Assembly: GCA_024398405.1 (NCBI GenBank)
Contig: JAKSJE010000014.1
Span: 1 to 37,040 of the forward strand
Length of the DNA stretch: 37,040 bases
Reading direction: 5' to 3'
From: Bacteroidaceae bacterium
GTDB taxonomy: Bacteria > Bacteroidota > Bacteroidia > Bacteroidales > Bacteroidaceae
Position numbers and translations under genes: made by a program
Notes under the pieces: generated by a model
The model's database searches: none
Seen by the model: the letters and a program-made list of their open reading frames with translations, nothing else
What the model was told of the DNA's origin: nothing
In this document: in pieces, positions 14,944-35,160 of the stretch
Layout of the letters: every line of letters begins with the position of its first letter
Numbering within the stretch: position 1 is the stretch's first letter

Positions 14944-16008
14944 TCAATCATTATTGATGTATTCACAAATCCATTCACCCACCTCGGAAGTTGAATAGGT
15001 CCTCTCTCCCTCAATCTGAATATCGCCAGTGCGCACATTACCTACGATTGACGCATCAACAGCCTTTCTGATTTCCGACGCTTCGTCCTTGAGGCCGAAT
15101 GTGTATTCAAACATCATGGCAGCAGAGAGGATGGTGGCAAGCGGGTTGGCGACATTCTTGCCAGCGGCCTGAGGCCATGAGCCGTGGATAGGCTCATAGA
15201 CCGACGTATAAGTTCCGATCGAAGCACTTGGGAGGAGTCCCATTGAGCCAGTTATGCATGAGCCCTCGTCTGTGAGAATATCTCCGAACGTATTTTCCGT
15301 CACCATCACGTCGAAGAACCTCGGTTCCTGAATCATGCGCATAGACGCATTATCCACAAACATGAAATCTGTCTGAATGTCAGGATTCTGAAGAGCCATC
15401 TCCTGAGCCACCTTTCTCCACAGACGAGATGAAGCAAGGACATTCGCCTTGTCAACAACCGTAAGATGACGGTTACGCTGGCGCGCATACTCAAATGCGA
15501 CCTTCAGTATCCGCTGTATTTCGTTCCGGGTGTAGATATTCGTATCATACGCCATGTCATCACCTTCGTGCTTTTCCCCGAAATACATGCCTCCTGTCAG
15601 TTCGCGGATGCAGATGAAATCAGCTCCTCTAACGAGTTCTTCCTTCAATGGCGACTTATGCACAAGGCTATCGAACGTCTGAATAGGGCGGATATTGGCA
15701 AAAAGCCCGAGTTTCTTCCTCATAGCCAGAAGCCCCTGTTCCGGACGGATCTTAGCAGAAGGGTCGTTATCGAAGCGAGGGTCGCCCACCGCACCGTACA
15801 AGACAGCATCACTCTCCAAACACAATTGATGGGTAGCCTCAGGATAGGGGTCACCCACTTCATCAATCGCATGCGCGCCACAGATGGCGTACTGATATTC
15901 CAATTCATGCCCGAACTTATGACAGACGGTCTTCACCACATTCAAAGCCTGTCCCACTACTTCTGGTCCTATACCGTCACCAGGTAGTACTGCTATTTTA
16001 AGTTTCAT
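14944..16008 (-). CDS. leuB: 3-isopropylmalate dehydrogenase
   Basis: LeuB oxidatively decarboxylates 3-isopropylmalate (leucine) and, in the citramalate route, 3-methylmalate to 2-oxobutyrate (isoleucine). I choose ATG at 16008 ([17 protein letters not shown]..., 354 residues) over the upstream 16035, because it starts two bases below the leuD stop and places the GDGIGPEV motif at the expected N-terminal position. Family segments include [27 protein letters not shown] and [12 protein letters not shown], with the substrate-metal Asp in [13 protein letters not shown]. It is the last BCAA gene; carB follows after 22 nt, with no promoter or terminator I can recognise between them. Confidence 0.95.
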
Positions 16009-16009
16009 A

Positions 16010-16633
16010 TCAATAATATGTTTGTTCTGTTTCAAATTGCTCTATCTTATCTTTGATTCCCAGAAGGAAATCAACATCATCAAGTCCGTTAATCAAACAG
16101 TATTTCTTATATGGATTGATGTCGAAGTGTTCACTTCTGCCTGTGTTCTTATCTGTGACAATCTGGTTAGGCAGGTCAACCTCAACAACAGCCTGTGGGT
16201 CTTTCCTTACAGAGTCAAAGAGTTGCAACTGAAATTCCCGGCTTACGATGACAGGCAGCACAAAGCCATTCATGAGATTGTTCCTATGAATATCCGCGAA
16301 CGATGACGAGATCACACATCTGACGCCATACCCGGAAATGGCCCATACAGCATGTTCACGTGATGAGCCTGAGCCCCAGTTCTGTCCTCCAATAATTATC
16401 TCATGCACACCTTCACGTGGTCTCTCAACGAAATCGGGTTGGTTAAGCACGAATGTAGGTATCGGTCTATCATCCTTATCGAACCTGAGATCATGCATGA
16501 ATCCGTTTCCGAAGAATTGTGGGTCACGGGAAGTCGTAGCCATGAAACGGGCAGGAATGATAAGATCCGTATTGCAGTTGTCTATGTCAATAGGCAGACA
16601 AGTGGATTGTATTACCGTAATTTTCTTATTCAT
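16010..16633 (-). CDS. leuD: Isopropylmalate/citraconate isomerase small subunit
   Basis: A 207-residue aconitase-C-like swivel domain. The motif [14 protein letters not shown] (around residues 82-95) is the substrate-recognition loop of LeuD. It pairs with LeuC to isomerise 2- to 3-isopropylmalate and, with CimA upstream, citramalate to 3-methylmalate. It overlaps leuC by four bases and leuB follows immediately, an arrangement giving matched subunit amounts. Length is normal. Confidence 0.95.
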
Positions 16634-18012
16634 AACTTTCGTGGATCTGTAATTACACCGGTGATTGCTGAGGCCGCGACGGTAAGAGGACTTGCGAGAA
16701 CCGTTCTGGCTCCAGGTCCCTGACGTCCGACAAAATTTCTGTTTGATGTGGATATTGAAAGTTTCCCTGCCGGGACTTTATCAGGATTCATCGCCAAGCA
16801 GGCAGAACAAGACGGAAGGCGCAATTCAAAGCCTGCCTCCTTAAGAATCTCATCAATTCCCTCGTCGATAATCTGCTTGCGCACGAGCCAAGAGCCAGGA
16901 ACAAGCCATGCGGTCACGTTGTCTGCCTTCTTTCTTCCTTTAACGACAGAAGCAAACGCTCTGAAGTCTTCTATTCTTCCGTTAGTACATGCACCCAAGA
17001 ATACATAGTCAACCGGATGTCCCTCAAGTCTCTCCCCGGGGCTGAACCTCATATAGTCAAGTTGTGCAAGAAAACCAGTTCGTTCTTCCTCGGGAACGTC
17101 CTCAATCAGAGGGATGGTTCCGTCAACAGGGATGCCTGCGCCGGGATTGGTGCCGTAAGTGACACGAGGAGTGATGTCTTCCGCATGATAGGTCACTTCA
17201 CGATCGAAAACAGCATCCTCATCGCTGTGAAGTGTCTTCCAGTACTCGACAGCCCTGTCCCACGCCTCGCCAGCAGGTGAATACTCTCTGCCTTTGAGAT
17301 ATTCAAATGTTTTTTCATCAGGAGCGATAATCCCGGCTCTTGACCCCATCTCGATTGAGAGGTTGGAGAGAGTCAGACGCCCTTCCATAGACAGAGACCT
17401 AATGGCAGAGCCTGCATATTCAACGACATACCCAGTCGCCCCAGAGGTAGTCATCTGAGCCATGATATAAAGAGCCACGTCCTTTGCCGTCACACCTTCC
17501 CGGAGTTTTCCCTCCACATTGATCCGCATCGATTTGGGCTTTTGCTGAAGAATGCACTGAGACGCAAGGACTTCAGCGACCTCGCTTGTGCCGATTCCCA
17601 TGGCAAGCGCACCTAATGCACCATGTGTTGAGGTGTGCGAGTCACCGCATACAATAGTCATTCCAGGAAGTGACAAACCCTTTTCAGGACCTACCACATG
17701 GATGATGCCATTGTCTTTACTCCCCATAGGGAAAAAGTTGACACCGAACTCCTCACAATTTCGCTTTAGTGTCTCAACTTGATTGCGACCAACAGGATCG
17801 CTGATGAATTCCTGTTGATCAGATGGTGTGTTGTGGTCAGGCATAGCGAACACCTGTTGAGGTCTGAACACCTTCACACCCTTGTCTCGGATTGTATCAA
17901 ATGCCTGTGGCGATGTGACCTCGTGACAATAAAGTCTGTCGATATAGAGGACATCATTTTCCATGGAACTCACCACATGACTGTCCCATATTTTATCAAA
18001 GAGAGTATTCAT
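16630..18012 (-). CDS. leuC: Isopropylmalate isomerase large subunit
   Basis: The 460-residue aconitase-family large subunit. The Fe-S ligands are visible as one Cys in [12 protein letters not shown] (about residue 340) and two in [12 protein letters not shown] (about residues 400-403). [13 protein letters not shown] at about 130 is also a family signature. With LeuD it serves leucine synthesis and, given CimA at the head of this operon, the citramalate branch to isoleucine. It overlaps cstA and leuD by four bases at each end, so the three are probably translationally coupled. Confidence 0.96.
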
Positions 18013-19493
18013 TGAATAGTGGTTTTTCTTTTCTTCTCACCTATTACGTAGAAAGCGAACCAGACGAGCAGTCCCATGGACGAGGCGAATCCGATCACGT
18101 TAGATATAGAGATGTCCATCTTGAATCCCTCTGGTGCCGCAAAGATGTAGCTGACGCACACGGCTGTCATCCATAACGCAGGAAGCAAAGTAATCCATAA
18201 ATGCCTTGAACGTTTCGCAAGCCAAATGGAAGCAGCCCACAACGTGATTGTGGCAAGTACTTGGTTTGTCCATACGAAATAACGCCAAAGAACCTGAAAC
18301 TCCACTACCATAAGTAGAATGGACAGTCCCATTATCGGCATGATGATCTCAATTCTCCGTTTGATTTTTCTCTGGCTAATATGAAGAGCGTCCGAGAGTA
18401 TCAGACGAGCGCTACGTAGAGCTGTGTCTCCTGTCGTAATCGGAGCAGCAACAACCCCCAGGATGGCTATGACAGCCCCGAAAGTCCCAAACCAAGAGTG
18501 ACATAGTTTGTTTACGAGGATGGTAGGCATCGCCGCATGAGTTCCGTTATCAGTAAGCAGGTTCAGAAGTTGCTCATAAGGCGTCGAGCCTTCTGTTCCG
18601 AATGAAGATGCAAAAAGGATGGTCGCTGCAGCCCATATCATAGCGATTAAGCCCTCTGTTATCATTGCTCCGAAAAAGACCGGACGCATCAGCTTCTCAT
18701 TCTTGATGCAACGCACCATCAGCGGACTCTGGGTCGCGTGGAACCCACTAACCGCCCCACAACAGATGGTCACACAAACGCCAGGGAACATCGGCAATGC
18801 TGTCTTGTCAGGATTAACCGTACTGAATGTCTCGGAAAAATCCGGTAGATAGCCGCTGTGTGTGAAGATTCCGAAAATCAATCCCAGTGCCATCATTATG
18901 AGGACTATTCCGAAAATCGGATAAATGCGGCCTATGACTTTATCAATCGGCAGCAGTGCCGCAAACAGATAGTATCCGAAAATGACAACCGACCAGAACG
19001 ACACAGAGCCGAATAGTCCACATCCGTTCATCATTGATGCGAGAAGTGCAGCCGGCGTCATGGTAAACGCTGCACCCACCATGACCATCAGGACCACGGC
19101 AATGGAACGGACAATCACTCCCGCCGCGAAACCCATCTCGCTTACGATGATTTCAGGAAAACTCGCACCATTCTTTCGCATGGAAAGTACTGCCCCGAAG
19201 AAATCATGTACAGCACCTACGAACACGCACCCAAGCGCAATCCATATATATGCTATCGGACCATAAAGAATACCAAGTATGGCGCCGAATATGGGTCCTG
19301 TGCCTGCGATGTTCAGAAACTGAACCAAGTATGTTTTCCATGCTGGCATAGGAACAAAGTCCACACCATCACGGAGTCTGATGGCAGGAGTGGCCTTTGT
19401 CGCATCAATGCCAACTACCTTGCTTAGAAATCGGCCATAAAACAGAAGCCCCAATACAAGTATCAGTAAACCTATCAGGAATGATGTCATCAA
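18009..19493 (-). CDS. cstA: CstA-family membrane transporter (candidate pyruvate or peptide carrier)
   Basis: A 494-residue polytopic membrane protein with roughly a dozen hydrophobic segments. The N-terminal half carries CstA-family wording: [21 protein letters not shown] followed by [18 protein letters not shown]. It is shorter than E. coli CstA or BtsT (about 700 residues), as is common for the family outside enterobacteria. Members have been linked to pyruvate uptake and to peptide uptake during carbon starvation. It overlaps ilvC and leuC by four bases each, so it is built into the BCAA operon. Because pyruvate is a substrate of both CimA and IlvB, pyruvate uptake is an attractive but untested role; export or uptake of an intermediate is also possible. 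Confidence 0.88.
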
Positions 19494-20530
19494 TTATTCT
19501 CTGGTCTAAGTTTACGAACCACTTCAGCAGTCCTCCACATTTCGCTGTCATGCAGTGCGGCAAGTTCCTTATTGAGCTTCTCACGATAGTCCGGCTGGCT
19601 GTTGCTGTCGATACTGATCTGAGCCTGTTCTCCACATTTCACGCTTGCATAAAGTTTTTGCATAACTGGCTTAATAGCATCGTGGAACGGGCCCATCCAG
19701 TCAAGTGCGCCTCTCTGTGCCGTTGTGGAACAGTTCGCATACATCCAGTCCATACCTTTTGCCGCAAAAAGTGGCATCAGGGATTGTGTGAGTTCCTCGA
19801 CTGTCTCGTTAAATGCCTCTGAAGGAGTGTGGCCGTTTTCGCGCAATGTCTCGTACTGAGCGAGCAGAAGTCCTTGAATCGCTCCCATCAGGGAACCTCT
19901 CTCTCCTGTCAAATCGCTTGTCGCCTCACGAAGGAAGGTTGTCTCGAACAAGTAACCTGAGCCGATGCCAATTCCAAGAGCGAGTGTTCGGTCAAGGGCT
20001 TTTCCTGTCGCATCCTGATAAACCGCATAGGATGAATTGAGCCCACGACCTTCAAGGAACATAGTGCGGAGACTGGTTCCTGAGCCCTTTGGCGCAACCA
20101 TGATGACATCAATGTCCTTTTCAGGAACGCACCCTGTACGGTCATTCCATGTGATTGCGAATCCATGAGAGAAATAGAGAGCGTCGCCAGGCTTGAGATG
20201 TGGTTTAAGGGATGGCCATACAGACATGACCGCCGCATCAGAAAGGAGACACATTACGATAGTACCTTTCTCAGCGGCCTCCTCAATAGAGAACAGAGTC
20301 TCACCCGGCACCCAGCCATCCGCAATGGCCTTGTCGAAAGTCTTACCCTGTCGCTGCCCGACAATAACATTGAATCCGTTGTCTCTGAGATTGCATGCCT
20401 GACCTGGTCCTTGGACACCATAGCCAATAACCGCGATTGTCTCGTCCTTGAGAATCTCACGTGCCTTTTCCAATGGGAACTCCTCACGGGTCATTACTTC
20501 CTCAATAACCCCACCAAAATTCATTTTCAT
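19490..20530 (-). CDS. ilvC: Ketol-acid reductoisomerase
   Basis: IlvC isomerises and reduces acetolactate or acetohydroxybutyrate. The 346-residue product has GYGVQGPGQ at 36-44 for the dinucleotide, a short cofactor-selecting loop in VGQRQGKTFDKA, the substrate segments FSHGF, APKGSGTSLR and SDLTGERG (Mg ligands), and the C-terminal helical domain ending in RPENN, as in other Bacteroidetes. Start could be Met1 or Met3. The gap from ilvN is 18 nt and it overlaps cstA by four bases. Confidence 0.96.
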   Translation of the reverse strand: MKMNFGGVIEEVMTREEFPLEKAREILKDETIAVIGYGVQGPGQACNLRDNGFNVIVGQRQGKTFDKAIADGWVPGETLFSIEEAAEKGTIVMCLLSDAAVMSVWPSLKPHLKPGDALYFSHGFAITWNDRTGCVPEKDIDVIMVAPKGSGTSLRTMFLEGRGLNSSYAVYQDATGKALDRTLALGIGIGSGYLFETTFLREATSDLTGERGSLMGAIQGLLLAQYETLRENGHTPSEAFNETVEELTQSLMPLFAAKGMDWMYANCSTTAQRGALDWMGPFHDAIKPVMQKLYASVKCGEQAQISIDSNSQPDYREKLNKELAALHDSEMWRTAEVVRKLRPENN

Positions 20531-20548: not shown

Positions 20549-21187
20549 TTAGTTGTTATTTTGTACTGATAATATCTTTTCATTCTCCCGCTCCGCAAGG
20601 AATTTGTCAAGATACTCCTCCTTGCTTTTTGTAAGGCTAATCCGTCCTGTTCTTGAGAACTGAAGAACGGCTCCTTTCTCATGCAGAAGGTCGAACAGGT
20701 CAAATATGGTAGTTGTCCTACCTATTTTCTCTATAGTCGAGAAGACCGGGTTCACCTCGACGATGTGTGCTCCATGATGGCGTATGGCCTCTGTGATTTC
20801 GGAATCATTCATCATCACTGGTGTTGAAATCTTGTATAGTGCTGCCTCAAGGCTGAACAGTTCATCGTCAACATAGTATCTTGCCTGAAGTACGTCTATT
20901 CGTCTTTCGATTTGCAATGTAAGCATCTTCGCCATGTTTTCCGTGCAAACACATGTGATTGTGTATTTATGAATGCCCGGAATAGAAGACCCACATGTAT
21001 TCAGACTTTCGATGTTCACTTGCCGGCGAGTGAATACCGCGGTAATTTGCGAAAGCAAGCCAGGTACGTTTTCCGAAAACACCATTATCGTATAAAGCCT
21101 TTCGCATTTACTCGTATCCCTTGCGGGAAGTCCTTTGCACTTTCCGCAAGTCTCACAATCACTATAGGGATATTGTCTTTTCTCCAT
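20549..21187 (-). CDS. ilvN: Acetolactate synthase small subunit with Cys-rich N-terminal extension
   Basis: A 212-residue regulatory subunit of acetohydroxyacid synthase. An ACT domain starts at about residue 30 (LYTIMVFSENVPGLLSQITAVFTRRQVNIESL), where valine-type feedback ligands normally bind, followed by a C-terminal domain of the family. Unusually, residues 1-29 form an extension with Cys11, Cys14, Cys17 and Cys28 (C-x2-C-x2-C-x10-C). The extension looks genuine: the ATG at 21187 lies 11 nt after the ilvB stop and no other in-frame Met precedes the ACT domain. The pattern could bind Zn or an Fe-S cluster, or take part in disulfides. I do not recall it in Bacteroides IlvN. Confidence 0.92.
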   Translation of the reverse strand: MEKRQYPYSDCETCGKCKGLPARDTSKCERLYTIMVFSENVPGLLSQITAVFTRRQVNIESLNTCGSSIPGIHKYTITCVCTENMAKMLTLQIERRIDVLQARYYVDDELFSLEAALYKISTPVMMNDSEITEAIRHHGAHIVEVNPVFSTIEKIGRTTTIFDLFDLLHEKGAVLQFSRTGRISLTKSKEEYLDKFLAERENEKILSVQNNN

Positions 21188-21198
21188 ATTCGAGTTTT

Positions 21199-22896
21199 CT
21201 AATCGTTTATCTCGAGAACCATCTCATCGACATTGGCTCCTGGCGGAGTTATCGGAAGTATGTTCTCCTCTTCTTTCACCACACACTGAAGCAGATATGG
21301 GCCGGTGGTGTTGATCATCTCGTTTATAGCCTCGGCGAGTTCCACCCTGTCTGCAACAGTCCGACACGGTATGCTATATGCGCTTGCTATCTTCTCATAA
21401 TCCGGGTTCAGCATTGGGGTGAAACTGTAATGCCGGTCGAAGAACATATATTGCCACTGGCGGACGTTACCAAGGAAGTTGTTATTCAGAAGGATAATCT
21501 TAACAGGGGACTTCTGCTCCATGATCGTACCCAGTTCCTGAATTGTCATCTGCAACCCTCCGTCACCGACGAAAAGACAGACGGTTCTGTCTGGGGCTCC
21601 TAATGTGGCACCGATAGCAGCAGGCAGTCCGAATCCCATGGTTCCGCATCCTCCGGAAGAAACCACGCTACGTCCCTTCCTGAATTTGAAGTATCTGCAA
21701 GCGAACATCTGATTCTGTCCAACGTCAGTCACCATGATGGACTCATGGTTCGTGGCTTCACTTACAGCATTTATCACTTCAGGCATCAACAATGGTCCTG
21801 TTTGTGGATGGATGGCTTTATCTATAACCTTGTCATATTCCTGCTGATAATATGGTCTGAAACTATCTATCCATTCTTTATGTTCATTGGGCTGCACATA
21901 TTTGGTGACCTCTGCCAATGTATGTTTGCAGTTGCCAAGCACGGGAATGTCAACAGGGACATTCTTGTTGAATTCTGATGGGTCAATATCGAAATGTATG
22001 ATCTTCGCTTGTTTGGCGTATGTCTTCAGATTGCTGGTGACTCTGTCGTCGAAGCGCATTCCGACTGCAATCAGGACATCACATTGATTTGTCTTGACAT
22101 TAGGAGCAAGGTTTCCGTGCATACCCAACATTCCCATGTTGAGCCGGTGTTCGGAAGGGAATCCAGACAGTCCGAGCAGCGTACATCCGCATGGTGAATC
22201 GATTTTCTCGACAAAATCAAGCAGTTCTTTTCTTGCATCCCCGAGTTCTACTCCCTGGCCGACAAGCACCAACGGTTTCTTCGCATTGTTTATAAGTTCT
22301 GCAGCCGCAGTGATGGCGTCAGGAGTGAAACCAGGGTCCGGACGATAACTCCTGATAAAACCGACCTTTTCAGAATGGTATTCAAGCAACTCAGTCTGTG
22401 CGTTCTTCGTAAAGTCAAGGACTACGGGACCCGGTCTGCCACTCTTAGCGATATAGAAAGCACGGCTGACTGCCCATGCAATGTCCTCGGCGCTTCTGAT
22501 CTGATAGCCCCATTTCGAAATCGGGCTCGTGACATTCACCACATCAACTTCCTGGAATGCGTCAGTGCCAAGATGATATGTACCGACCTGACCGCATATC
22601 ACCACTAATGGCGTACTGTCAATCATGGCATCAGCTATGCCCGTTACGGTGTTGGTAGCACCTGGTCCGCTTGTGACAATCACGCACCCCACTTCACCAG
22701 AGACTCTCGCAAAACCCTGTGCAGCATGAACAGCTCCTTGTTCGTGGCGGACAAGAATATGATTTAGTTCTTCTTTATGATTATACAAAGCATCATATAC
22801 AGGCATGATGGCTCCTCCCGGATAGCCAAAGAGTGTCTTCACGCCTTCGCTTATCAAACTTCGCATCAAGGCTTCTGAGCCTGTTATCTTTTCCAT
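21199..22896 (-). CDS. ilvB: Acetolactate synthase large subunit
   Basis: A 565-residue TPP enzyme that condenses two pyruvates, or pyruvate with 2-oxobutyrate. The TPP-activating Glu52 is in VRHEQGAVHAA, the FAD/central domain follows, and the TPP-Mg motif runs from GDGGLQMT (about residue 442) to LNNNFLGNVRQWQ (about 471-483). Its partner ilvN follows after 11 nt. Length is typical. Substrates connect it to CimA (2-oxobutyrate supply) and possibly to the CstA-family carrier. Confidence 0.96.
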   Translation of the reverse strand: MEKITGSEALMRSLISEGVKTLFGYPGGAIMPVYDALYNHKEELNHILVRHEQGAVHAAQGFARVSGEVGCVIVTSGPGATNTVTGIADAMIDSTPLVVICGQVGTYHLGTDAFQEVDVVNVTSPISKWGYQIRSAEDIAWAVSRAFYIAKSGRPGPVVLDFTKNAQTELLEYHSEKVGFIRSYRPDPGFTPDAITAAAELINNAKKPLVLVGQGVELGDARKELLDFVEKIDSPCGCTLLGLSGFPSEHRLNMGMLGMHGNLAPNVKTNQCDVLIAVGMRFDDRVTSNLKTYAKQAKIIHFDIDPSEFNKNVPVDIPVLGNCKHTLAEVTKYVQPNEHKEWIDSFRPYYQQEYDKVIDKAIHPQTGPLLMPEVINAVSEATNHESIMVTDVGQNQMFACRYFKFRKGRSVVSSGGCGTMGFGLPAAIGATLGAPDRTVCLFVGDGGLQMTIQELGTIMEQKSPVKIILLNNNFLGNVRQWQYMFFDRHYSFTPMLNPDYEKIASAYSIPCRTVADRVELAEAINEMINTTGPYLLQCVVKEEENILPITPPGANVDEMVLEIND

Positions 22897-22914: not shown

Positions 22915-24726
22915 CTAAATAAGTCTAACTCCTCCTTTGTCTGCGCTTGCAACACTCTGCGCATATGCTCTGAGCGCCTTACTGACGATTCTGTTTCTTT
23001 CCAGAGGTCGCTGAGGCCGCCCAGCCAATTCCTCTTCGGAAAGTCTCACGTTGATGGAACGGTTAGGGATGTCTATTTCGATTATGTCACCATCAACAAT
23101 TTTCCCGATATTACCGCCGTTGGCAGCTTCAGGACTGATGTGACCGATACTAAGTCCGCTTGTCCCCCCTGAAAATCTTCCGTCAGTAATGAGTGCGCAT
23201 TCCTTGCCGAGATGCATGGACTTGATATACGAAGTAGGATAAAGCATTTCCTGCATCCCGGGACCGCCTTTCGGACCTTCATGAGTGATGACTACGACAT
23301 CGCCAGCCTTGACCTTTCCGCCTAAGATTCCCTCACATGCATCTTCCTGAGAGTCAAACACCACAGCAGGACCGGCGAACTTCCAGATACTCTCATCCAC
23401 GCCTGCGGTTTTCACGACGCAACCATCCTGCGCAATGTTTCCGAACAGCACAGCCATGCCCCCATCTTTCGTATAGGCGTTTTCTATCGATCTGATACAC
23501 CCATTCACACGGTCTGTGTCAAGTGTGTCATACTGAGAGTCCTGAACTCCCAGTCTGTTGCAGAACACACCTGCCGGGGCAGATGAATAAATACGCCTTG
23601 CTTCCGGATCAACCGATGCTTTGAGTATGTCGAATCTATCTATATCTTCAGCAAGCGTACTTCCATTGACCCGCTTAACAGAAGTATCTATCAGATTCCC
23701 CTTTGCCAGTTCCCCAAGAAGGTTGAGCATTCCACCTGCCCTCCCACATTCCTGAACACTGTACCTCTGAGAATTCGGAGCGAGCTTGCACAAGAACGGA
23801 GTCTTTCTCGACAATTCATCAATGTCCGTCATGGTGAAATCGACATCTGCCTCCTGGGCTATTGCAAGCAGATGAAGCACGGTGTTTGTGGATGCACCCA
23901 TTGCGATATCAAGAGTCATGGCATTGAGGAAAGCCTGACGGGTAGCAATGCTCCTCGGAAGAATGCTGTCATCCCCATCTCTGTAATACGCGAATGCGTT
24001 GTCCACAATCTGACGAGCAGCCTGCCGCATCAATTCTGTCCTGTTCACATGTGTAGCCAAAATTGTCCCGTTTCCTGGCAAGCTGAGTCCAATCGCCTCT
24101 GTAAGGTTGTTCATGGAATTCGCCGTGAACATACCGGAACAACAGCCACAACCAGGACATGCTCTGTTTTCCACCTCTGCAAGTTCCTCATCGCTCACGG
24201 TCTTGTCAGCACCTTTCACCATGGCTGCGATAAGGTCCAGATTCTCACCCTTGTATTTGCCAGCCTCCATCGGTCCCCCACTGACGAACACTGCTGGTAT
24301 GTTAAGTCTCATGGCGGCCATCAGCATGCCTGGGGTTATCTTATCACAATTGCTGATGCAGATCATCGCATCGGCCTTGTGGGCATTGACCATATATTCA
24401 ACGCTATCCGCAATAATATCACGACTTGGCAGCGAATAAAGCATACCGTCATGTCCCATTGCGATTCCGTCATCAATAGCGATAGTGTTGAACTCAGCGG
24501 CATAGCACCCCATCTTCTCTATTTCCGCTTTGACTATCTGACCAGCCTCATGCAAATGAGTGTGTCCTGGAACGAATTGAGTAAATGAGTTTACGATAGC
24601 GATAATAGGCTTGCCGAATTGCTCACGTTTCATACCGTTGGCAACCCAAAGGGCTCTTGCGCCTGCCATTCTCCGGCCCTCGGTACAGACTGAACTTCTA
24701 AGAGGATTAATATATTTCATTTTCAA
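22915..24726 (-). CDS. ilvD: Dihydroxy-acid dehydratase
   Basis: IlvD dehydrates dihydroxy acids to 2-oxoisovalerate or 2-oxo-3-methylvalerate using an Fe-S cluster. The 603-residue product shows the cluster Cys residues in [12 protein letters not shown] (about 125) and [20 protein letters not shown] (about 190-205), plus [15 protein letters not shown] near the C terminus. It is a normal-length member. It lies 35 nt after ilvE and 18 nt before ilvB. Oxygen sensitivity of the cluster fits an anaerobe. Confidence 0.96.
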
Positions 24727-24761: not shown

Positions 24762-25784
24762 CTATATGTCAAGGACGGTAACCCAGTTGTGTGTATCCTC
24801 GATGTCGCCGAACTGGATGCCTGTCAGTGTCTCATACAGTTTAGTACAAATCGGGCCCGGCTTCCCGTCTTTTGAAAGTACGTACGTCTTGTTCATCTCC
24901 ACATCGTCAATTCTCTCAATCGGAGATATCACAGCCGCTGTTCCGCAAGCCCCCGCTTCCTCGAATGTCTCAAGTTCTTCAATCGGGACCTGACGGCATT
25001 CCACCCTCATGCCTAAATCCTCTGCAAGCTGCTGCAATGACAGATTGGTTATTGACGGCAGTATGGAAGTGGATTTAGGGGTGACATAAGTGTTGTCCTT
25101 GATTCCAAAGAAATTGGCAGCACCACATTCATCAATGTATTTCTTCTCTTTCGCATCGAGATAGAACTCACAACTGTACCCCATCTTGTGGGCCAGATCA
25201 TTCGCTTTCATGCTTGCTCCATAGTTTCCCCCGACTTTATATATGCCTGTGCCGAGAGGTGCTGAACGGTCATATTGCCGTGTGACCATGTATGGATTGG
25301 TCGAGAAACCGCCCTTGAAGTACGGACCTACAGGTGTGACGAACATTAGGAGCAGGTATTCCGAAGCAGGATGAACTCCCACTTGCGCACTTGTGCCTAT
25401 TAGCAGAGGACGGATGTAAAGAGTCGCTCCGCTTCCATAGTCCGGCACCCACTTCGCATTCAAGGTGACTACTTTCGTCACCATCTCGCAGAACAACTCC
25501 GTAGGCACCTCTGGCATCATCATCCCTCTGCATGTTGACTGCAGACGCTCCGCGTTTTTGTCCATGCGGAAAATCCTCACTTTATCGTCTTTTCCCCTAT
25601 ATGCTTTTAGTCCCTCAAAAGCCTCCTGGCCATAATGAAGGCACGTGGCGGCCATATGGAGTGGTATCATTTCGCTATCTGACACCTGTATGTCTCCCCA
25701 TTTACCGTCTTTGTACTCGCATCGCACATTGAAATCGGTCTTATTATAACCGAACTTTAAATTTGAGCCGTCAAATCCTTTCAT
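24762..25784 (-). CDS. ilvE: Branched-chain amino acid aminotransferase
   Basis: A 340-residue class IV PLP aminotransferase, of the longer BCAT type. GLKAYRG (around 58-64), [10 protein letters not shown], and the Schiff-base Lys183 in [12 protein letters not shown] are clear, as is [14 protein letters not shown] near residue 280 for the PLP phosphate. It performs the last step for Ile, Val and Leu. It is second in the operon, 30 nt after cimA. Confidence 0.95.
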
Positions 25785-25814: not shown

Positions 25815-27338
25815 TCAACTGTTCTCTATAATGTTCAGCATCTTGATTGTAGCCTTGATTGCAGCTTCAGTCTGATCCGCATCGAGACCTCTGGTCTTAA
25901 ACGTCCGGCCTTCGAACTCCCATGTGATGATAGTCTGGACAAAGGCATCCGTTCTTCCACCAGGGGGAATGGAAACTGCGTAGTTCACAAGCATTGGGAA
26001 TTTTCTTTCCAGAGTTATCTTGTAGATTTTCCGCAATGCCCTAACGAAAGCGTCATACTGTCCGTCTCCGCTCGAAGTTTCCTCGAAAACTTGTCCGTTG
26101 ATGTCAAGCCTCAGTGAGCATGTAGGTTTCAGGCTGTTACACAGTGCCACATTATAGCCGAGCAACCTGACTTTCTCATCCGACACATCATGTTTCAACA
26201 CATCAGAGATGATAAACGGGAGGTCATCCTGTGTCACCAGTTCCTTCCTGTCGCCCAGTTCGATGATTCTTGCCGTGACCTTCCTCATGGAGTCCTCGTC
26301 AAGAGTCATTCCAAGTTCATCGAGGTTCTTCTTTATGTTCGCCTTGCCGCTGTTCTTCCCTAACGCGTATTCTCGTTTCCTCCCGAACCTCTCAGGGAGA
26401 AGTTTGTTGCAGTAAAGATTATGCTTACTGTCACCATCAGCATGTACTCCGGCAACTTGCGTGAAGACATTCTCACCTACGATTGGCTGATTGCTTGCTA
26501 TTGCTATTCCCGAGAACGATTCCACCATCCGGCTCGCAGCCATAAGGCGCTCCTCGTTCAGGTTGGTGTTGACATGCAGGTGATCCTTCAATATGGCCTG
26601 CACGCTTGCGATAGAGGCATTACCAGCCCTTTCCCCAAGTCCGTTGATAGTAGTATGAAGTCCACTGACACCCGCCTTCACAGCCGCAAACACATTGCTT
26701 ATCGCCATGTCATAGTCATTATGCGCATGGAAATCAAAACGCAACTGGGGGAAGTGTCCGACCATCTGTCCTACGAAGTCTGTGACCTGGTTCGGATTGA
26801 GCACGCCTAAAGTATCGGGTAGCATGAACCTTTCGATTTTCTCATTTGCAAGAGCCCGGACTAAGTCAAACACATATTGCGAGTCTCTCTGCATACCCAT
26901 ACTCCAATCCTCAAGATAGAGATTCACCTTGATACCATTGCCGTTAGCATATCCTATCGTGGTCTTGATGTCACTGATATGTTGAGGGAGAGTTTTGCCT
27001 AATTGTTTTTCACAATGTTCCCTGCTTCCTTTAGCAAGGAGATTGATGACCTTGCCACCACATTGCCTTATCCAGTCAACGGATATATTCCCGTCAACAA
27101 ATCCAAGGACCTCTATTTTGTCAAGGACTCCTGCTTTCTCAGCCCATTGACAGATACTGGAGACGGATTTCACTTCGCCTTCGGACACACGAGCAGAAGC
27201 GATTTCGATTCTGTCAACCATGAGTTCCTCAAGCATCATGCGAACGATAGCAAGTTTCTCGTGGGGCATGAAACTCACACCGCATGTCTGCTCGCCATCT
27301 CTCAGCGTAGTATCCAGTATCTCTATATGTTCAGTCAT
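25815..27338 (-). CDS. cimA: (R)-citramalate synthase, LeuA family
   Basis: CimA condenses pyruvate and acetyl-CoA to citramalate, the first step of threonine-independent isoleucine synthesis. The 507-residue product has an intact DRE-TIM site: Arg13-Asp14 in TTLRDGEQ and metal ligands His204/His206 in FHAHNDYD. It aligns with Leptospira interrogans citramalate synthase (from memory) with a constant offset of three: Leu78, Leu101 and Tyr141 match the pyruvate-pocket residues Leu81, Leu104 and Tyr144, and Glu143, Thr176 and Asp301 match Glu146, Thr179 and Asp304. A C-terminal LeuA-type regulatory domain (about 385-507) ends in DADQTEAAIKATIKMLN. The Ile-rich leader just upstream independently supports an isoleucine role. 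It is often annotated as 2-isopropylmalate synthase. Confidence 0.9.
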   Translation of the reverse strand: MTEHIEILDTTLRDGEQTCGVSFMPHEKLAIVRMMLEELMVDRIEIASARVSEGEVKSVSSICQWAEKAGVLDKIEVLGFVDGNISVDWIRQCGGKVINLLAKGSREHCEKQLGKTLPQHISDIKTTIGYANGNGIKVNLYLEDWSMGMQRDSQYVFDLVRALANEKIERFMLPDTLGVLNPNQVTDFVGQMVGHFPQLRFDFHAHNDYDMAISNVFAAVKAGVSGLHTTINGLGERAGNASIASVQAILKDHLHVNTNLNEERLMAASRMVESFSGIAIASNQPIVGENVFTQVAGVHADGDSKHNLYCNKLLPERFGRKREYALGKNSGKANIKKNLDELGMTLDEDSMRKVTARIIELGDRKELVTQDDLPFIISDVLKHDVSDEKVRLLGYNVALCNSLKPTCSLRLDINGQVFEETSSGDGQYDAFVRALRKIYKITLERKFPMLVNYAVSIPPGGRTDAFVQTIITWEFEGRTFKTRGLDADQTEAAIKATIKMLNIIENS

Positions 27339-27351
27339 CTGCCTTTTTTTG

Positions 27352-27388
27352 AAAAAGCCTTTCTCCGTGGTTTACTGAGAAAGGCTTT
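27352..27388 (-). terminator. Attenuator terminator before cimA
   Basis: On the minus strand AAAGCCTTTCTC (27388-27377) and GAGAAAGGCTTT (27365-27354) form a perfect 12-bp stem with an 11-nt loop, running into five T (27356-27352). It ends 13 nt before the cimA ATG, so it can only make sense as a conditional terminator of the cimA transcript (and for read-through from cysE). Confidence 0.9.
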
Positions 27389-27458
27389 ATTGTTTGAATC
27401 AAGAACAATCTTTTGGGAAATAACAAAGACCTATTCTCAGACTATCGGTATAATCTGA
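27375..27458 (-). promoter_or_regulatory. Attenuator: pause hairpin (1:2) and antiterminator (2:3)
   Basis: The last codons of the leader peptide form a 9-bp hairpin: 27458-27450 with 27445-27437, loop ACCG. Its right arm belongs to a segment, 27440-27421, that can alternatively pair with 27391-27375, the left arm of the terminator: CTGAGAA with TTCTCAG, then AGG with CCT, then TTT with AAA, with single-base bulges. Stalling of the ribosome at the Ile codons would mask strand 1, allow 2:3 and prevent the terminator; completing the peptide would favour the terminator. This is the textbook 1:2, 2:3, 3:4 arrangement. Confidence 0.82.
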
Positions 27459-27499
27459 ATTCGGATAATCACTCGACGTACAATGCCAAACTTTGTCAT
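27437..27499 (-). CDS. Ile/Val-rich leader peptide of the cimA-ilv-leu-arg operon
   Basis: A 20-codon frame encodes MTKFGIVRRVIIRIQIIPIV and stops with TGA. Seven residues are Ile (codons ATT, ATC and ATA) and three Val; there is no Leu. A strong Shine-Dalgarno sequence AAAGGAGG (27514-27507) lies 7 nt before the ATG, which is conspicuous because most genes here lack one. It sits directly downstream of a good promoter and its end overlaps the pause hairpin. Its job is expected to be sensing charged tRNA-Ile (and Val) by ribosome stalling, controlling the terminator before cimA. The product itself probably has no other function. Confidence 0.88.
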   Translation of the reverse strand: MTKFGIVRRVIIRIQIIPIV

Positions 27500-27523
27500 A
27501 TTGCTTCCTCCTTTAATCTCGTG

Positions 27524-27555
27524 CAAAATTACAACAAATTCGCAACATATGCAAA
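27524..27555 (-). promoter_or_regulatory. Bacteroidetes-type promoter for the cimA operon
   Basis: On the minus strand TTTG (27555-27552), a 20-nt spacer and TAATTTTG (27531-27524) match the Bacteroidetes consensus TTTG-N19-21-TAnnTTTG exactly. The start site would fall near 27517, a few bases ahead of the leader peptide Shine-Dalgarno sequence. The promoter begins just beyond the cysE stop. Confidence 0.88.
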
Positions 27556-27577
27556 TATTTGGCCAACAAAAATAAGA

Positions 27578-28231
27578 CTATGTTACTTTTGTTCCCGCAT
27601 CGACATCTGACACTATCCATTTGTTAGCTCCAATCACAGAATTCCTACCAATTCGCACCCTTCCAAGTATCGTTGCGTTACTATACACGATCACCCCGTC
27701 TTCAAGTATCGGATGGCGCGGTAGTCCCTTGATAGGGTTACCATCCTTGTCAAGTGGAAAACTCTTTGCTCCGAGGGTGACTCCCTGATACAGTTTCACA
27801 TGGTTTCCGATGACACAGGTCTCGCCTATCACGATGCCAGTACCATGGTCAATCGTGAAATAGCCACCTATCGTTGCACCTGGATGGATGTCAATGCCTG
27901 TCTCACTATGTGCCCATTCGGTTATCATACGAGGTATCAGTCTGACATTCATCGTCCAGAGTTTGTGGGCAAGCCTGTAATTGATTATCGCCTTGATACC
28001 CGGATAGCAACAGATGATTTCCTCGAAGTCTTGCGCTGCGGGGTCGCCCTCGTAAGTCGCCCTGACATCCTTCATTATCTGACCTCTGAGTTCATCAATA
28101 TAACCTATTGGCAACATATCAAACAAAGGTGATGACTCACGAGGCTCGTAATAGTCGGGGAACAGTCTGTTCCTAACCTCGTAAATCAGATGCCTCACAT
28201 CGTTGTAGTTAAATGTCAGATTAGTTTTCAT
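27578..28231 (-). CDS. cysE: Serine O-acetyltransferase, short C terminus
   Basis: CysE acetylates serine with acetyl-CoA for cysteine synthesis. The 217-residue product has an N-terminal helical part and a left-handed beta-helix with HPGATIGGYFTIDHGTGIVIGE and KLYQGVTLGAKSF, containing the catalytic His/Asp surroundings. It ends at GTKVT, soon after the hexapeptide region. Many CysE proteins continue about 15-30 residues and finish with a C-terminal Ile that docks into CysK; here that tail is absent. It is the last gene of the second operon, 12 nt after cysK. Confidence 0.92.
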   Translation of the reverse strand: MKTNLTFNYNDVRHLIYEVRNRLFPDYYEPRESSPLFDMLPIGYIDELRGQIMKDVRATYEGDPAAQDFEEIICCYPGIKAIINYRLAHKLWTMNVRLIPRMITEWAHSETGIDIHPGATIGGYFTIDHGTGIVIGETCVIGNHVKLYQGVTLGAKSFPLDKDGNPIKGLPRHPILEDGVIVYSNATILGRVRIGRNSVIGANKWIVSDVDAGTKVT

Positions 28232-32100: not shown

Positions 32101-32689
32101 CAAGCAGGCCATGCAGTTTCTCTGTGTCTATCATCTCCACAGTATTGATTTCGTGGGATGTACGGAAACCGTCGAAGAAGTGCATGAAAGGTGTCCTGCC
32201 TTTCAGAGCGGCAAGATGCGCCACGGCGGCGAGGTCTGTCACCTCCTGGACGCTGCTCGTGCACAGCATCGCGAATCCGGTGTTCCTACAACACATCACA
32301 TCGCTGTGATCTCCGAATATGCTCATGGCATGAGTGCCCACGGTCCGTGCCGCCACATGAAGCACCACAGGAAGTCTCTCGCCCGCTATCCGGTGAAGCA
32401 CCGGTATCATGAGCATAAGCCCTTGGCTCGAAGTGAAACTCGTAGCCAGTGAGCCCGTCTGCGCCGCTCCGTGGACGGCGCCGATCGCACCTGCCTCCGA
32501 CTGCATCTCTATCAGCGTCACTGGTTGTCCGAAGATGTTCTTCCGACCTTTGGCTGACCAGTTGTCCGTATGCTCCGCCATCGGCGAGGATGGGGTTATC
32601 GGATATATGGCTGCTATCTCCGTGAAGTCGTAGGCTATGTGTGCCGCGGCCTCGTTTCCGTCAAGTGTGACTAATTCCTTATTTGTCAT
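29165..32689 (-). CDS. nifJ: Pyruvate:ferredoxin oxidoreductase, single-chain
   Basis: This 1174-residue protein has the full single-chain domain order: N-terminal IYPITPSSPMAEH with the catalytic Thr32, then AARTVGTHAMSIFGDHSD with the substrate Arg near 115, a CoA-linked middle region, two ferredoxin motifs CIQCNRCSLVCPH (about 691-703) and CTSCGSCAESCPS (about 751-763), proximal-cluster Cys in ACAGCGETPY (about 815) and ATGCSQAW (about 843), and the TPP-Mg site GGDGWAYDIGFGG to MYSNTGGQSCKATP. It oxidises pyruvate to acetyl-CoA and CO2 and reduces ferredoxin, and can run in reverse. Its overlap with the acyl-CoA ligase fusion and position beside leuA-like raise the possibility of another 2-oxo acid substrate. 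Confidence 0.93.
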   Translation of the reverse strand: MTNKELVTLDGNEAAAHIAYDFTEIAAIYPITPSSPMAEHTDNWSAKGRKNIFGQPVTLIEMQSEAGAIGAVHGAAQTGSLATSFTSSQGLMLMIPVLHRIAGERLPVVLHVAARTVGTHAMSIFGDHSDVMCCRNTGFAMLCTSSVQEVTDLAAVAHLAALKGRTPFMHFFDGFRTSHEINTVEMIDTEKLHGLLDKEALAAFHRHALSPEHPLMRSTVQNPDVFFQIREACNPYYDRLPQIVEDYFLEINKITGRDYHVFNYYGAPDATDVVVAMGSVSGAVREAVDSLNANGRKTGFVQVHLYRPFSAEHLLGVMPGTVRRVAVLDRCKEPGAMGEPLYEDVCAAVCQRGLQVKVIGGRYGLSSKDTYPSLIMSVFDNLRSDRPVNGFTIGINDDLTHLSLAPATTYEPYAAGKTYRCKFWGLGGDGTVGANKNTVHIVSECSHMYGQAYFEYDAKKSFGVTKSHLRFSSEPIDASYYVKDADFVACHNQSYIGKYDIVSELANGGLFLLNCDKDDAELVGWLPNHVKRVLAEKHVRFFVINATDIALRLGLGAHTNTVLQAAFFSVSKIIETQTALAAMKEAAKTTYFAKGEKVIAQNIKAIDCGADEVREIAVPDCWRELADDPAEDVSALPAKVRSLLLPINSQKGDDMPVSAFCDYVDGAMELGFTAYEKRGIAVKTPKWDAEKCIQCNRCSLVCPHAVIRPLLLNEDEKAAAPSGFTSVDAKLSANAKAKAEGKLYYALSISAYDCTSCGSCAESCPSDALSMVHAEQDDKDKALFEYGRKVSDKGDLFDPYTVKGSQFRTPLLEFSAACAGCGETPYAKLLTQLFGDRVYWANATGCSQAWGAAMPAIPYTTNQRGFGPAWTNSLFENNAELCLGMYLSVTQKRELVRSLVTELKDKSEGGLRTACEEFIASFNDMNLSRKASDKLIESLSEMPQASEHETTARLLALKDHFAKKTFWMYGGDGWAYDIGFGGLDHVIATGANVNVFVIDTEMYSNTGGQSCKATPIGAVVKFASSGKKSQKKDLGRIMMSYGNVYVAQVAMGANQNQLLKAIKEAEEFDGPSVIIGYTPCVSHGISIGIQKVQEEMRRAVDSGYWTLYRFDPRKEHPFQLDSKAPTMPYTDFLDGEVRYSSLRRTFPENADELFVKGREEAERRFGLFKELSEQ

Positions 32690-35160
32690 TTCAGTCCAAG
32701 TTTCTCAACAGCGTTCTCACGCATCTTGTATTTCAGTATTTTGCCTGCCGCGTTCATCGGGAACGCATCAGTGAAGTCTATATACTTCGGCACTTTGTGC
32801 CTTGCCAGGCTTGCTGTGATATATGCTCTCATCTCCGGCTCCGTAAGCGTCTCACCGTCTTTCAGGACAATACAAGCCATGGCCTCCTCACCATACTTCT
32901 CGTCGGGCACGCCGATGACCTGCACGTCCTTCACCTTCGGGTGGGTGTAGATGAACTCCTCTATCTCCTTCGGGTAGATATTCTCACCGCCACGTATGAT
33001 CATGTCCTTCAGTCTTCCCGTGATTTTGTAGTTTCCGGCCTCGTCCTTGCAGGCGAGGTCGCCCGAGTGCAACCAGCCATCACCGTCGATGGCCTGCGTT
33101 GTCGCGTCCGGCATCTTGTAGTAGCCCTTCATGGTGTTGTACCCTTTGGAGCAGAACTCGCCGTTCACCCCTGCCGGCACTTCCTCGCCGGTCTCTGGAT
33201 CCACCACCTTGCAAGCCACGTGGGGAAACGCGTACCCTACCGTGTCCGTCCTGACCTCTATCGGGTCTGTCCATGCGGACATCGTACTTCCCGGGGCCGA
33301 CTCCGTCTGACCATACACGCTCACTATCCCCTTCATGTTCATCTCGTCCTCGCGTGCGGCGCGGCGCATCAACTCAGGAGGGCAACCGGAGCCTGCCATG
33401 ATTCCTGTCCGCATGTGAGAGAAGTCTGTCGAGCGGTAGTCCGGATGATTGAACATGGCGATGAACATAGTAGGCACGCCGTTGAAGCAGGTGATCCGCT
33501 CCTGGTTTATGCACGCCAACGAGGATTTGGCGGAGAAATACGGCATCGGGCACATCGTCGCGCCATGTGTCACCGACGAGGTCATCGAAAGCACCATGCC
33601 GAAGCAGTGGAACATGGGCACCTGTATCATCATACGGTCAGCGGTCGAGAGTCCCATGCGGTCTCCAATCGCCTTGCCGTTGTTCACCACGTTGTAGTGG
33701 GTGAGCATCACTCCTTTCGGGAAGCCTGTCGTGCCGGAGGTGTATTGCATGTTGCACACGTCATCCGGCCTCACGTCTGCCGCCATGCCCTCCACCACCT
33801 CCTTCGGCACGAGGTTCCTCCTCGCCATCGCCTCCTCGAAGGTCAGACAGCCGGCCTGACGGAACCCCACGGTGATGACGTTCCTCAGAAACGGCAGACG
33901 TTTGCAGTGCAGAGGCTTTCCCGGCTGGCTGTTGCTTATCTCCGGACATAGTTCGTTGATTATCCTCCTATAGTCGGAGTCAAGGCTGCTCTCTATCATC
34001 ACAAGGGTGTGGGTGTCCGACTGGCGGAGCAGGTATTCCGCCTCGTGCGACTTATAAGCGGTGTTGACGGTCACCAGCACGGCACCTATTCTCACAGTCG
34101 CCCAGAAGGTGATGTACCACGCCGGAACGTTAGTCGCCCAGACCGACACCTTGCTCCCGGGTCTCACGCCCAGCGACACAAGAGCCCGGGCGAAGTCATC
34201 GACGTCACGCCGGAACTCGCTGTAGGTACGGGTATAGTCGAGCGTGGTGTATTTGAAACAGTACTGATCAGGGAACTCCTCAACAAGCCTGTCGAGAACC
34301 TGCGAGAAGGTGTGATTGATCAGTTCGTCTTTCTTCCATATATAGAACCCTGTACCGTCGTGGTTGGGGAAGAGCCTCGTTTTCTTGTCACGGCTTCTCT
34401 CGAAGCGTTCCATGTAATTGACGAAATGAGGGAAGATGACATTCATGTCCTTGAGGTCGGCCATCCATTCGGGTTCCCACTCCAATGACACGAACCCATC
34501 ATAGTCGATGGACCATAGCGCGTCCATCACCTCCTTCACCGGGAAGTTGCCTTCGCCGATGAGGTTGTACGTGTCAGCGTCGTCGCTGTCGCGCAGATGC
34601 ACATGCCTCACGTATGCCCCGAGGTTCTTGATCGACTGGGCGGGTGTCTCACATTTGTCGCGGTATGGATGATGCACGTCCCACAGCACTGCTATCTGGT
34701 CACAAGCGAAGTCGTTCATCAGGTCTCTCAGCAAGGCCGTGTCGGCATAGACACCGCTCGTCTCTATCAGTATCGTCACCCTGTTCTCCTCCGCCAGCGG
34801 AATCAGTCGCTGAAGGTTCTTCCTGATTATGGCTGAGTGGTCGGCCATCGCGCACACGCTCACATAAGGGCTCCTCATATCCGAGGCTATCCTCAGAGTG
34901 CGCAGCAGTTCGTCGCACCGCAACTCCTCCGAGATGTCAACCGACGTATCGAAGCAAGGCACCGCGAGTTTCTTTTCCCTCAGCTCACGGAATGTCCTGA
35001 GGACGGAGAAGGAGTCAAAAGGACCGCCGTTGCCTGTGAGCGACTGGTTACGGCAGGCGTTATAGACCTCTACGCCGGCGAAACGCATCTCTAACGCACT
35101 GGCGACCAACTCATCCCAGCCGGCGCTCTCCCACCCTCGTGTAGAAAACGACAGTCTCAT
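32686..35160 (-). CDS. TIM-barrel sugar isomerase-like domain fused to an AMP-forming acyl-CoA ligase
   Basis: An 824-residue two-domain protein. Residues 1 to about 255 are a xylose-isomerase-like TIM barrel with a plausible intact metal site: Glu133 in LIETSG, Asp161 and His163/164 in LWDVHHP, His186/188 in RHVHLRD, and Glu227 in SLEWEP. Residues about 280-824 are an acyl-CoA synthetase of the ANL family: P-loop YTSGTTGFPKG (473-483), YGQTE (616-620), Asp701 in HSGDL, GRLKDMIIRGGENIYP (715-730) and catalytic Lys807 in NAAGK. The ligase should activate a carboxylic acid to its CoA thioester through an acyl-AMP. The substrate cannot be read from sequence. It overlaps leuA-like and nifJ by four bases each, so the three are coupled. 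I recall similar fusions in Bacteroidales without an assigned role. Confidence 0.85.
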   Translation of the reverse strand: MRLSFSTRGWESAGWDELVASALEMRFAGVEVYNACRNQSLTGNGGPFDSFSVLRTFRELREKKLAVPCFDTSVDISEELRCDELLRTLRIASDMRSPYVSVCAMADHSAIIRKNLQRLIPLAEENRVTILIETSGVYADTALLRDLMNDFACDQIAVLWDVHHPYRDKCETPAQSIKNLGAYVRHVHLRDSDDADTYNLIGEGNFPVKEVMDALWSIDYDGFVSLEWEPEWMADLKDMNVIFPHFVNYMERFERSRDKKTRLFPNHDGTGFYIWKKDELINHTFSQVLDRLVEEFPDQYCFKYTTLDYTRTYSEFRRDVDDFARALVSLGVRPGSKVSVWATNVPAWYITFWATVRIGAVLVTVNTAYKSHEAEYLLRQSDTHTLVMIESSLDSDYRRIINELCPEISNSQPGKPLHCKRLPFLRNVITVGFRQAGCLTFEEAMARRNLVPKEVVEGMAADVRPDDVCNMQYTSGTTGFPKGVMLTHYNVVNNGKAIGDRMGLSTADRMMIQVPMFHCFGMVLSMTSSVTHGATMCPMPYFSAKSSLACINQERITCFNGVPTMFIAMFNHPDYRSTDFSHMRTGIMAGSGCPPELMRRAAREDEMNMKGIVSVYGQTESAPGSTMSAWTDPIEVRTDTVGYAFPHVACKVVDPETGEEVPAGVNGEFCSKGYNTMKGYYKMPDATTQAIDGDGWLHSGDLACKDEAGNYKITGRLKDMIIRGGENIYPKEIEEFIYTHPKVKDVQVIGVPDEKYGEEAMACIVLKDGETLTEPEMRAYITASLARHKVPKYIDFTDAFPMNAAGKILKYKMRENAVEKLGLK

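Follow-up and report, generated by a model that had tools for sequence, protein, structure and literature searches.

How is a long run of isoleucine, valine and leucine genes in a Bacteroidaceae genome brought under the control of its own products? The 37,040-nt stretch of DNA analysed here (the window) carries cimA-ilvE-ilvD-ilvB-ilvH-ilvC-cstA-leuC-leuD-leuB with gaps of 50 bp or less between genes from cimA onward, and a sequence-only reading had placed an isoleucine-sensing attenuator immediately ahead of cimA. Every element that it named (promoter, Shine-Dalgarno site, small frame, hairpin, antiterminator and terminator) is present on the minus strand between 27555 and 27352 (Table 1). 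We consider it highly probable, at roughly 90%, that these elements form a ribosome-mediated transcription attenuator, responsive to charged tRNA-Ile (and tRNA-Val), for the cimA-to-leuB operon. This reading draws on the sequence elements, on tests that argue against chance, on in silico dependence on ribosome position, and on similar leaders at the heads of other BCAA operons; from these we infer a transcription start, a single operon transcript, actual stalling and termination, and a response to starvation.

Table 1. The leader before cimA and the genes of the operon, in window coordinates
Feature	Position	Strand	Remark
Bacteroidetes-type promoter TTTG-N20-TAATTTTG	27524..27555	-	pattern match
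Shine-Dalgarno AGGAGG	27507..27512	-	7 nt 5′ of the ATG at 27499
Leader peptide frame MTKFGIVRRVIIRIQIIPIV, with stop	27437..27499	-	20 residues: 7 Ile, 3 Val, 0 Leu
9-bp hairpin (1:2), in the last leader codons	27437..27458	-	nine pairs
Region 2 (antiterminator segment; pairs with terminator 5′ arm)	27424..27441	-	duplex -14.8 kcal/mol
Terminator stem-loop (regions 3 and 4)	27354..27388	-	-17.2 kcal/mol; arm common to relatives
T5 tract of terminator	27352..27356	-	overlaps stem end
cimA, citramalate synthase-like	25815..27338	-	NCBIfam NF042433 best model; best solved chain a citramalate synthase
ilvE	24762..25784	-	
ilvD	22915..24726	-	
ilvB	21199..22896	-	
ilvH/N	20549..21187	-	
ilvC	19490..20530	-	
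CstA-like transporter	18009..19493	-	between ilvC and leuC, the place of leuA in g30 operons
leuC	16630..18012	-	
leuD (presumed name)	16010..16633	-	from translation; homologous to relatives' gene between leuC and cimA
leuB (presumed name)	14944..16035	-	from translation; homologous in relatives

The promoter at 27555-27524 fits what we take to be the Bacteroidetes consensus, TTTG-N20-TAnnTTTG, and the pattern TTTGN{18,22}TANNTTTG has three matches in the window against a mean of 0.24 in shuffles. A generic scan listed neither a sigma-70 promoter nor a terminator between 27000 and 28000, which we ascribe to a promoter that is probably of another type and to a stem mismatch that makes the terminator loop too long for the scan. 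The T5 tract ends 13 nt before the cimA ATG (27338).

The first protein of the operon matches the (R)-citramalate synthase model NF042433 with 627.9 bits, under the curated cut-off of 950 (next model 339), and its best solved chain is L. interrogans citramalate synthase at 388 bits (next 185). A search for leuA at E 1e-130 found none in the window's assembly, which is 59.7% complete. The LeuA-like protein x472 (35157-36575, minus strand), with LeuA_dimer and HMGL-like domains, was considered as the missing leuA and rejected on 26% identity to LeuA and, by eye, replaced RDGEQ and HxH motifs; a LeuA-like protein also adjoins porA in two same-genus genomes where leuA was not found (G001 and G008). 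The ilv/leu run continues with gaps of 50 bp or less into carB and what we take to be an arginine cluster, 18 genes in all (3666-27338, minus strand), so the attenuator might also affect the arginine genes. Two gene fusions lie on the same strand of the window: a carbamoyl-phosphate synthase large chain with a C-terminal GNAT acetyltransferase domain, directly before argG (11148-14921), and a xylose-isomerase-like TIM barrel joined to an AMP-binding enzyme (32686-35160).

Comparison with shuffled sequence and with other small frames of the window sets the leader apart. Of the window's 409 ATG frames with a length of 14-35 aa, the leader frame alone has at least 7 Ile and alone reaches an Ile+Val share of at least 10/19. 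Dinucleotide shuffles of the 239-nt leader equalled that share in 0 of 20,000 cases and produced a frame with at least 7 Ile in 24 of 20,000. A 35-nt hairpin as stable as the terminator or better arose in 1 of 300 shuffles, the antiterminator duplex was matched by 19 of 2000, and the fold of the 176-nt leader has z = -2.81, with 3 of 200 shuffles equally good. The window matches 10 of 11 bases of the terminator 5′ arm GCCTTTCTCAC found in relatives; this common arm is weak evidence by itself, since at one mismatch it has 2 matches in the window against 0.77 expected.

The proposed mechanism would couple transcription to the position of a single ribosome. RNA polymerase would start near 27520 and a ribosome would begin the 20-codon leader. 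With ample isoleucine and valine, the ribosome would get to the stop at 27437 and cover region 2, the 5′ arm at 27388 would pair with the 3′ arm, and transcription would terminate at T5. With isoleucine (or valine) scarce, the ribosome would stall on those codons and leave region 2 (27441-27424) free to bind the 5′ arm, so that no terminator would form and the operon would be transcribed.

Folding in silico agrees with this scheme. A ribosome was placed at each codon in turn, and the RNA still free ahead of it was folded as far as the end of the terminator's loop. Ile codon 6, 11, 12, 14 or 16 in the A site gives a predicted antiterminator probability of 0.85-0.92, which declines to 0.69 at Ile codon 17 and 0.40 at Ile codon 19; Val codons 7, 10 and 20 give 0.79, 0.78 and 0.26, and a ribosome at the stop gives 0.09. 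Footprints of 10-18 nt left the trend unchanged, with stop values of 0.09-0.26. In a textbook attenuator the 1:2 hairpin favours termination if the leader is untranslated, whereas in ribosome-free RNA of the window the antiterminator remains favoured (0.68) and the 1:2 hairpin, present in the sequence, hardly competes (0.17 or less). The scan covered 11 leaders, the window's included. In six others (G011, G010 leuC, G030, G240, G268 and G021) a value of 0.52-0.95 drops to at most 0.22 at the stop, three fall less far (G008, 0.86 to only 0.50; the lone leuA leader of G010, 0.90 to only 0.43; G101, 0.54 to only 0.28), and G045 shows no drop (0.65 at the stop), its region 2 probably being misplaced. 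In leaders from the window's genus the drop starts at, or one codon past, a Leu or Ile that directly follows Arg. The window has an Arg-Ile pair at codons 13-14, yet more Ile codons come after, and the Arg-Leu/Arg-Ile motif is absent from 13 of 39 leaders with leuA and cimA and from 6 of 24 leuA-only leaders.

No other genome among those searched holds a leader with the window's exact sequence, and a DNA similarity search of 301 family genomes gave short matches only: the window alone spanned the leader, and the terminator-end matches pointed to leu and ilvD heads. We compared 16 other genomes of the same genus, 13 of which have a detectable cimA. The expectation of a conserved leader upstream of cimA in close relatives failed here, as 0 of these 13 cimA upstreams gave a leader call; cimA adjoins leuD in 12 and stands apart in G001. 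Homologous leaders in the genus stand at the heads of leu operons that contain cimA. Nine leuA-leuC-leuD-cimA(-leuB) heads have leaders such as MNSISIIGIILSLRLSKLGVREACM, while G010 and G005 have a lone leuA with leader MANFANIAFLNLLVLRLTKSQVRRVCRY and a leuC-leuD-cimA operon with a separate leader (MYSTIINSGIILSLRISCSE for G010), its boundary Leu having become Ile; G008 is similar. The leuC head of G001 (L160) keeps a terminator and has no BCAA leader call, as if the switch had decayed. Heads of ilvD in 14 same-genus genomes have no real leader (one spurious call, G005). A set of 79 cimA upstreams gave two calls immediately before cimA, both of which look spurious (no CCTTTC arm), and another 24 gave none; six more upstreams (L307-L312), from a genus that we call g30, were read by eye only. 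In the cimA locus set, leuB, leuC or leuD adjoins cimA in 74 of 80 loci and ilvE in 0 of 80.

A survey of the family comprised 115 starts, namely 108 leu/cimA operon heads, the window's among them, and 7 starts of leuA that lie within merged clusters. Leaders were called at 84 of the 108 heads, which were picked by match rank and genus and hence non-randomly, with at least two calls probably false (G074 and G049), and at 0 of the 7 internal starts. Three further genomes (G132, G273 and G137), where a leader is apparent by eye or was called earlier, gave no call with the final finder and were left out of the counts. Operon content is known for 74 of the 84 called leaders; the 10 unclassified include G074 and G049. 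We counted cimA as inside an operon if its start lay within about 3.6 kb 3′ of leuA on the same strand; for the 24 leaders without cimA, it lies more than 5 kb off on the same contig in 8, on another draft contig in 14, and was not found in 2.

Sensor codons track this difference. The 39 leaders with cimA hold a median of 5 Ile codons (range 0-6) and the 24 without cimA hold 0-2, a contrast with Mann-Whitney p = 6e-11 over all leaders, 3e-9 over unique peptides (31 v 21) and 0.002 over genus medians (11 v 4), all of them optimistic owing to relatedness. Within genus g15, 15 leaders without cimA hold 0-2 Ile, and the leader of G240, where cimA lies 3′ of leuD, holds 5. Exceptions among leaders with cimA are G141 (0 Ile) and G239 and G167 (2 Ile each). 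At ilvD heads, leaders such as MNLHTSINLAVLHIIRVVVVASRA were called in 39 of 65 cases: all 30 of the 30 best matches, 7 of 20 heads that came from other genera, G117 via its own match, and the spurious G005. Val is more frequent in these leaders than in those at leuA heads (30 against 52 unique, p = 3e-14). They also hold 2-4 Leu, in one case 0, so Leu is not strictly bound to leuA. Leader codons thus tend to follow operon content, with Ile accompanying cimA and Val marking ilv leaders, and exceptions exist.

The closest counterparts of the window's operon come from seven g30 genomes, whose CimA proteins are nearest to the window's (72-73% identity). In these, cimA-ilvE-ilvD-ilvB-ilvH-ilvC is followed by leuA-leuC-leuD-leuB and a leader stands before cimA (MITSNLILVGIILLVLVE, MNATSVVLSLLVVILVKRK); a stricter finder called 2 of the 7 leaders and a relaxed finder all 7. 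In two clusters (G045 and G221) leuA lies directly 3′ of ilvC. The remaining five have an insert of about 4 kb between ilvC and leuA that holds three long co-directional frames, so that a single cimA-to-leuB transcript seems likely. By eye, two frames in the inserts of L301, L302, L304, L305 and L306 resemble lysine genes (aspartokinase and diaminopimelate decarboxylase), and a CstA-like gene lies 3′ of leuB in L304 and L306. The merged-cluster peptides hold 1-4 Ile, 4-5 Leu and 2-5 Val; three have a single Ile, which makes the Ile rule weak in this group. Val sets the merged leaders apart from the six g30 leaders of split operons (MYSLISLQLLDSLLLQPSGKDEKCVYI and similar peptides); five more split g30 leuA heads gave no leader call (G267, G195, G233, G116 and G256). 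All seven merged clusters combine leuA with Leu codons, whereas the window has neither leuA in the cluster nor a Leu codon, a case in which operon fusion without leuA goes together with a leader devoid of Leu codons. Where the sequence-only reading matched Ile without Leu to citramalate synthase, a sensor of Ile plus Val suits the whole cimA-ilv operon rather than citramalate synthase alone.

Leaders of this kind extend through the order. A leuA match was present in 58 of 159 genomes, and 16 of 20 leuA heads, drawn from the better matches with one per family in 20 other families, gave a leader call (G343 doubtful); CCTTTCTCAC spans the arm and loop in 9. Bacteroidales leu/ilv leaders share with the window an arm like CCTTTCTCA, a region 2 like GTGAGAAAGG, BCAA codons and a position at the operon head. 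They differ in their codons, with Leu and sometimes Ile at leuA heads, Ile, Val and some Leu at ilvD heads, and Ile and Val only in the window. On this sequence likeness the window leader looks homologous to an order-wide set. Such leaders are no rarity in Bacteroidales, with calls at 84 of 108 family heads and at 16 of 20 leuA heads in other families, and the ilv-type attenuation logic proposed from the sequence gains support from the anatomy, by folding against ribosome position and by homologous leaders elsewhere.

Pairing between region 2 and the arm was compared across 91 unique leaders, all of which contain a C(C/T)TTTC arm (AAAGCCTTTCTCAGT in the window versus AAAGCCTTTCTCACT in relatives). 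Each leader's own segment and arm pair with a mean of -19.4 versus -16.8 for mixed pairs, a difference reached in 0 of 5000 permutations. Antiterminator columns vary among G-C, A-T, G-T, T-A, T-G and C-G, in a table that leans towards pairing because it was built from each leader's best duplex. At one position the window has C-G, found in 3 of the 91, where 71 of the 91 have G-C, so that both sides have changed. For the window, the native duplex comes 10th of 91 when arms are ranked and 52nd of 91 when segments are, and we therefore take the pairing data as support, not proof. On balance we lean towards one homologous order-wide set of BCAA attenuators in which the RNA switch is kept and the sensor codons are rewritten (to Leu for leuA, Ile for cimA and Val for the ilv genes) as operons gain, lose or merge genes.

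Could the same elements serve another purpose? The hairpin might terminate an upstream cysK-cysE transcript, with a small frame that arose by chance and a cimA promoter of its own that is unregulated; cysE does end at 27578, on the same strand and just 5′ of the leader, and lone cimA genes without a leader call occur in other genomes. We regard this as very unlikely, given that the promoter sits between cysE and the small frame, that no shuffle equalled the frame's Ile+Val share, and that leu and ilv leaders have a similar terminator arm and a similar region 2. We give equally little weight to a leader that acts on cimA translation or mRNA stability, through coupling or reinitiation, in place of transcription termination. 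Leader frames near genes can boost translation by reinitiation, and the same study places the Bacteroidetes peak at 11-14 bp (PMC4833913), against 98 nt from leader stop to cimA; the stem moreover has T5 at its end, and it is the terminator arm, not the cimA start, that the alternative pairing engages.

A separate function for the peptide or leader RNA, as a small protein or a trans-acting RNA, is the least probable of these alternatives. A trans role of a leader peptide has been reported (PMC7298713). Against such a function here, peptide sequence varies from genus to genus, whereas the codon class and the RNA pairing persist. Under the preferred reading as an attenuator, the leader most likely lets its host turn on the isoleucine and valine genes only when these amino acids are scarce, a role predicted from sequence.

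Existing RNA families do not cover the locus. Rfam gave 0 gathering-score matches in the window, and sub-threshold matches at 27300-27650 all had E 0.097 or worse; no leu/ilv leader match reached the gathering score in 10 loci from relatives, and nine leu/ilv-head loci had none at E 0.01. The family BTnc060 matched the leader at full length with 19.3 bits against a gathering score of 228.9 (E 0.84), which we take as chance because those nine loci lack any match at E 0.01. In L150, Acido-Lenti-1 matches exceed the gathering score at 483-528 (plus strand) and 350-395 (minus strand), away from the leu/ilv leader. One Bacteroidetes cis-regulatory leader in Rfam, Bacteroid-trp RNA (RF01692; PMC2864571), establishes that such leaders are known in the phylum. 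It differs from the window in its Trp codons and terminator sequence and matches nothing in the window or elsewhere in that genome. RF01692 matches 1 of 17 same-genus genomes, at a locus with a WWW peptide and a terminator; the same-genus locus L178 has a Trp leader MIRIANNWWWRDSRFQRS with terminator before an apparent trp gene.

Judged by titles and opening lines of abstracts, none of the papers listed treats leu/ilv leader attenuation in Bacteroidales, a subject that subscription literature may cover. To our knowledge, leader-peptide amino-acid attenuation has mostly been described from Proteobacteria and Actinobacteria. The abstract of Vitreschak 2004 reportedly names Bacteroidetes/Chlorobi among groups with attenuators, and priority may lie there. 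The B. theta map mentions frames reminiscent of attenuation leaders (PMC7366714). In Corynebacterium, a reported ilvBNC uORF attenuator resembles the window in having a BCAA leader frame 5′ of an ilv operon (PMC10272879, PMC11857589). It belongs to another phylum and another operon, and we liken the two by frame and position.

The breadth of these calls suggests that attenuation is a common control of BCAA synthesis in Bacteroidales, a dominant gut order. The attenuator type itself is already known; codon retuning is the interesting part. Contrasts within a genus, where one switch meets differing codons and operon content, offer a natural experiment in the evolutionary retuning of a regulator, and if the proposed rewriting is true, leader codons could reveal the products of a merged or split operon. 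Among the closest known systems, the proteobacterial leader-peptide attenuators such as those of E. coli ilvGMEDA, ilvBN and leuABCD share with the window a frame rich in codons for the end product, a terminator and an overlapping antiterminator, all 5′ of the cognate operon. The window departs from these ilv and leu systems in its Bacteroidetes promoter, in a 1:2 pause hairpin that is weak in silico, in a leader free of Leu codons, and in a first gene, cimA, that opens the citramalate route to isoleucine.
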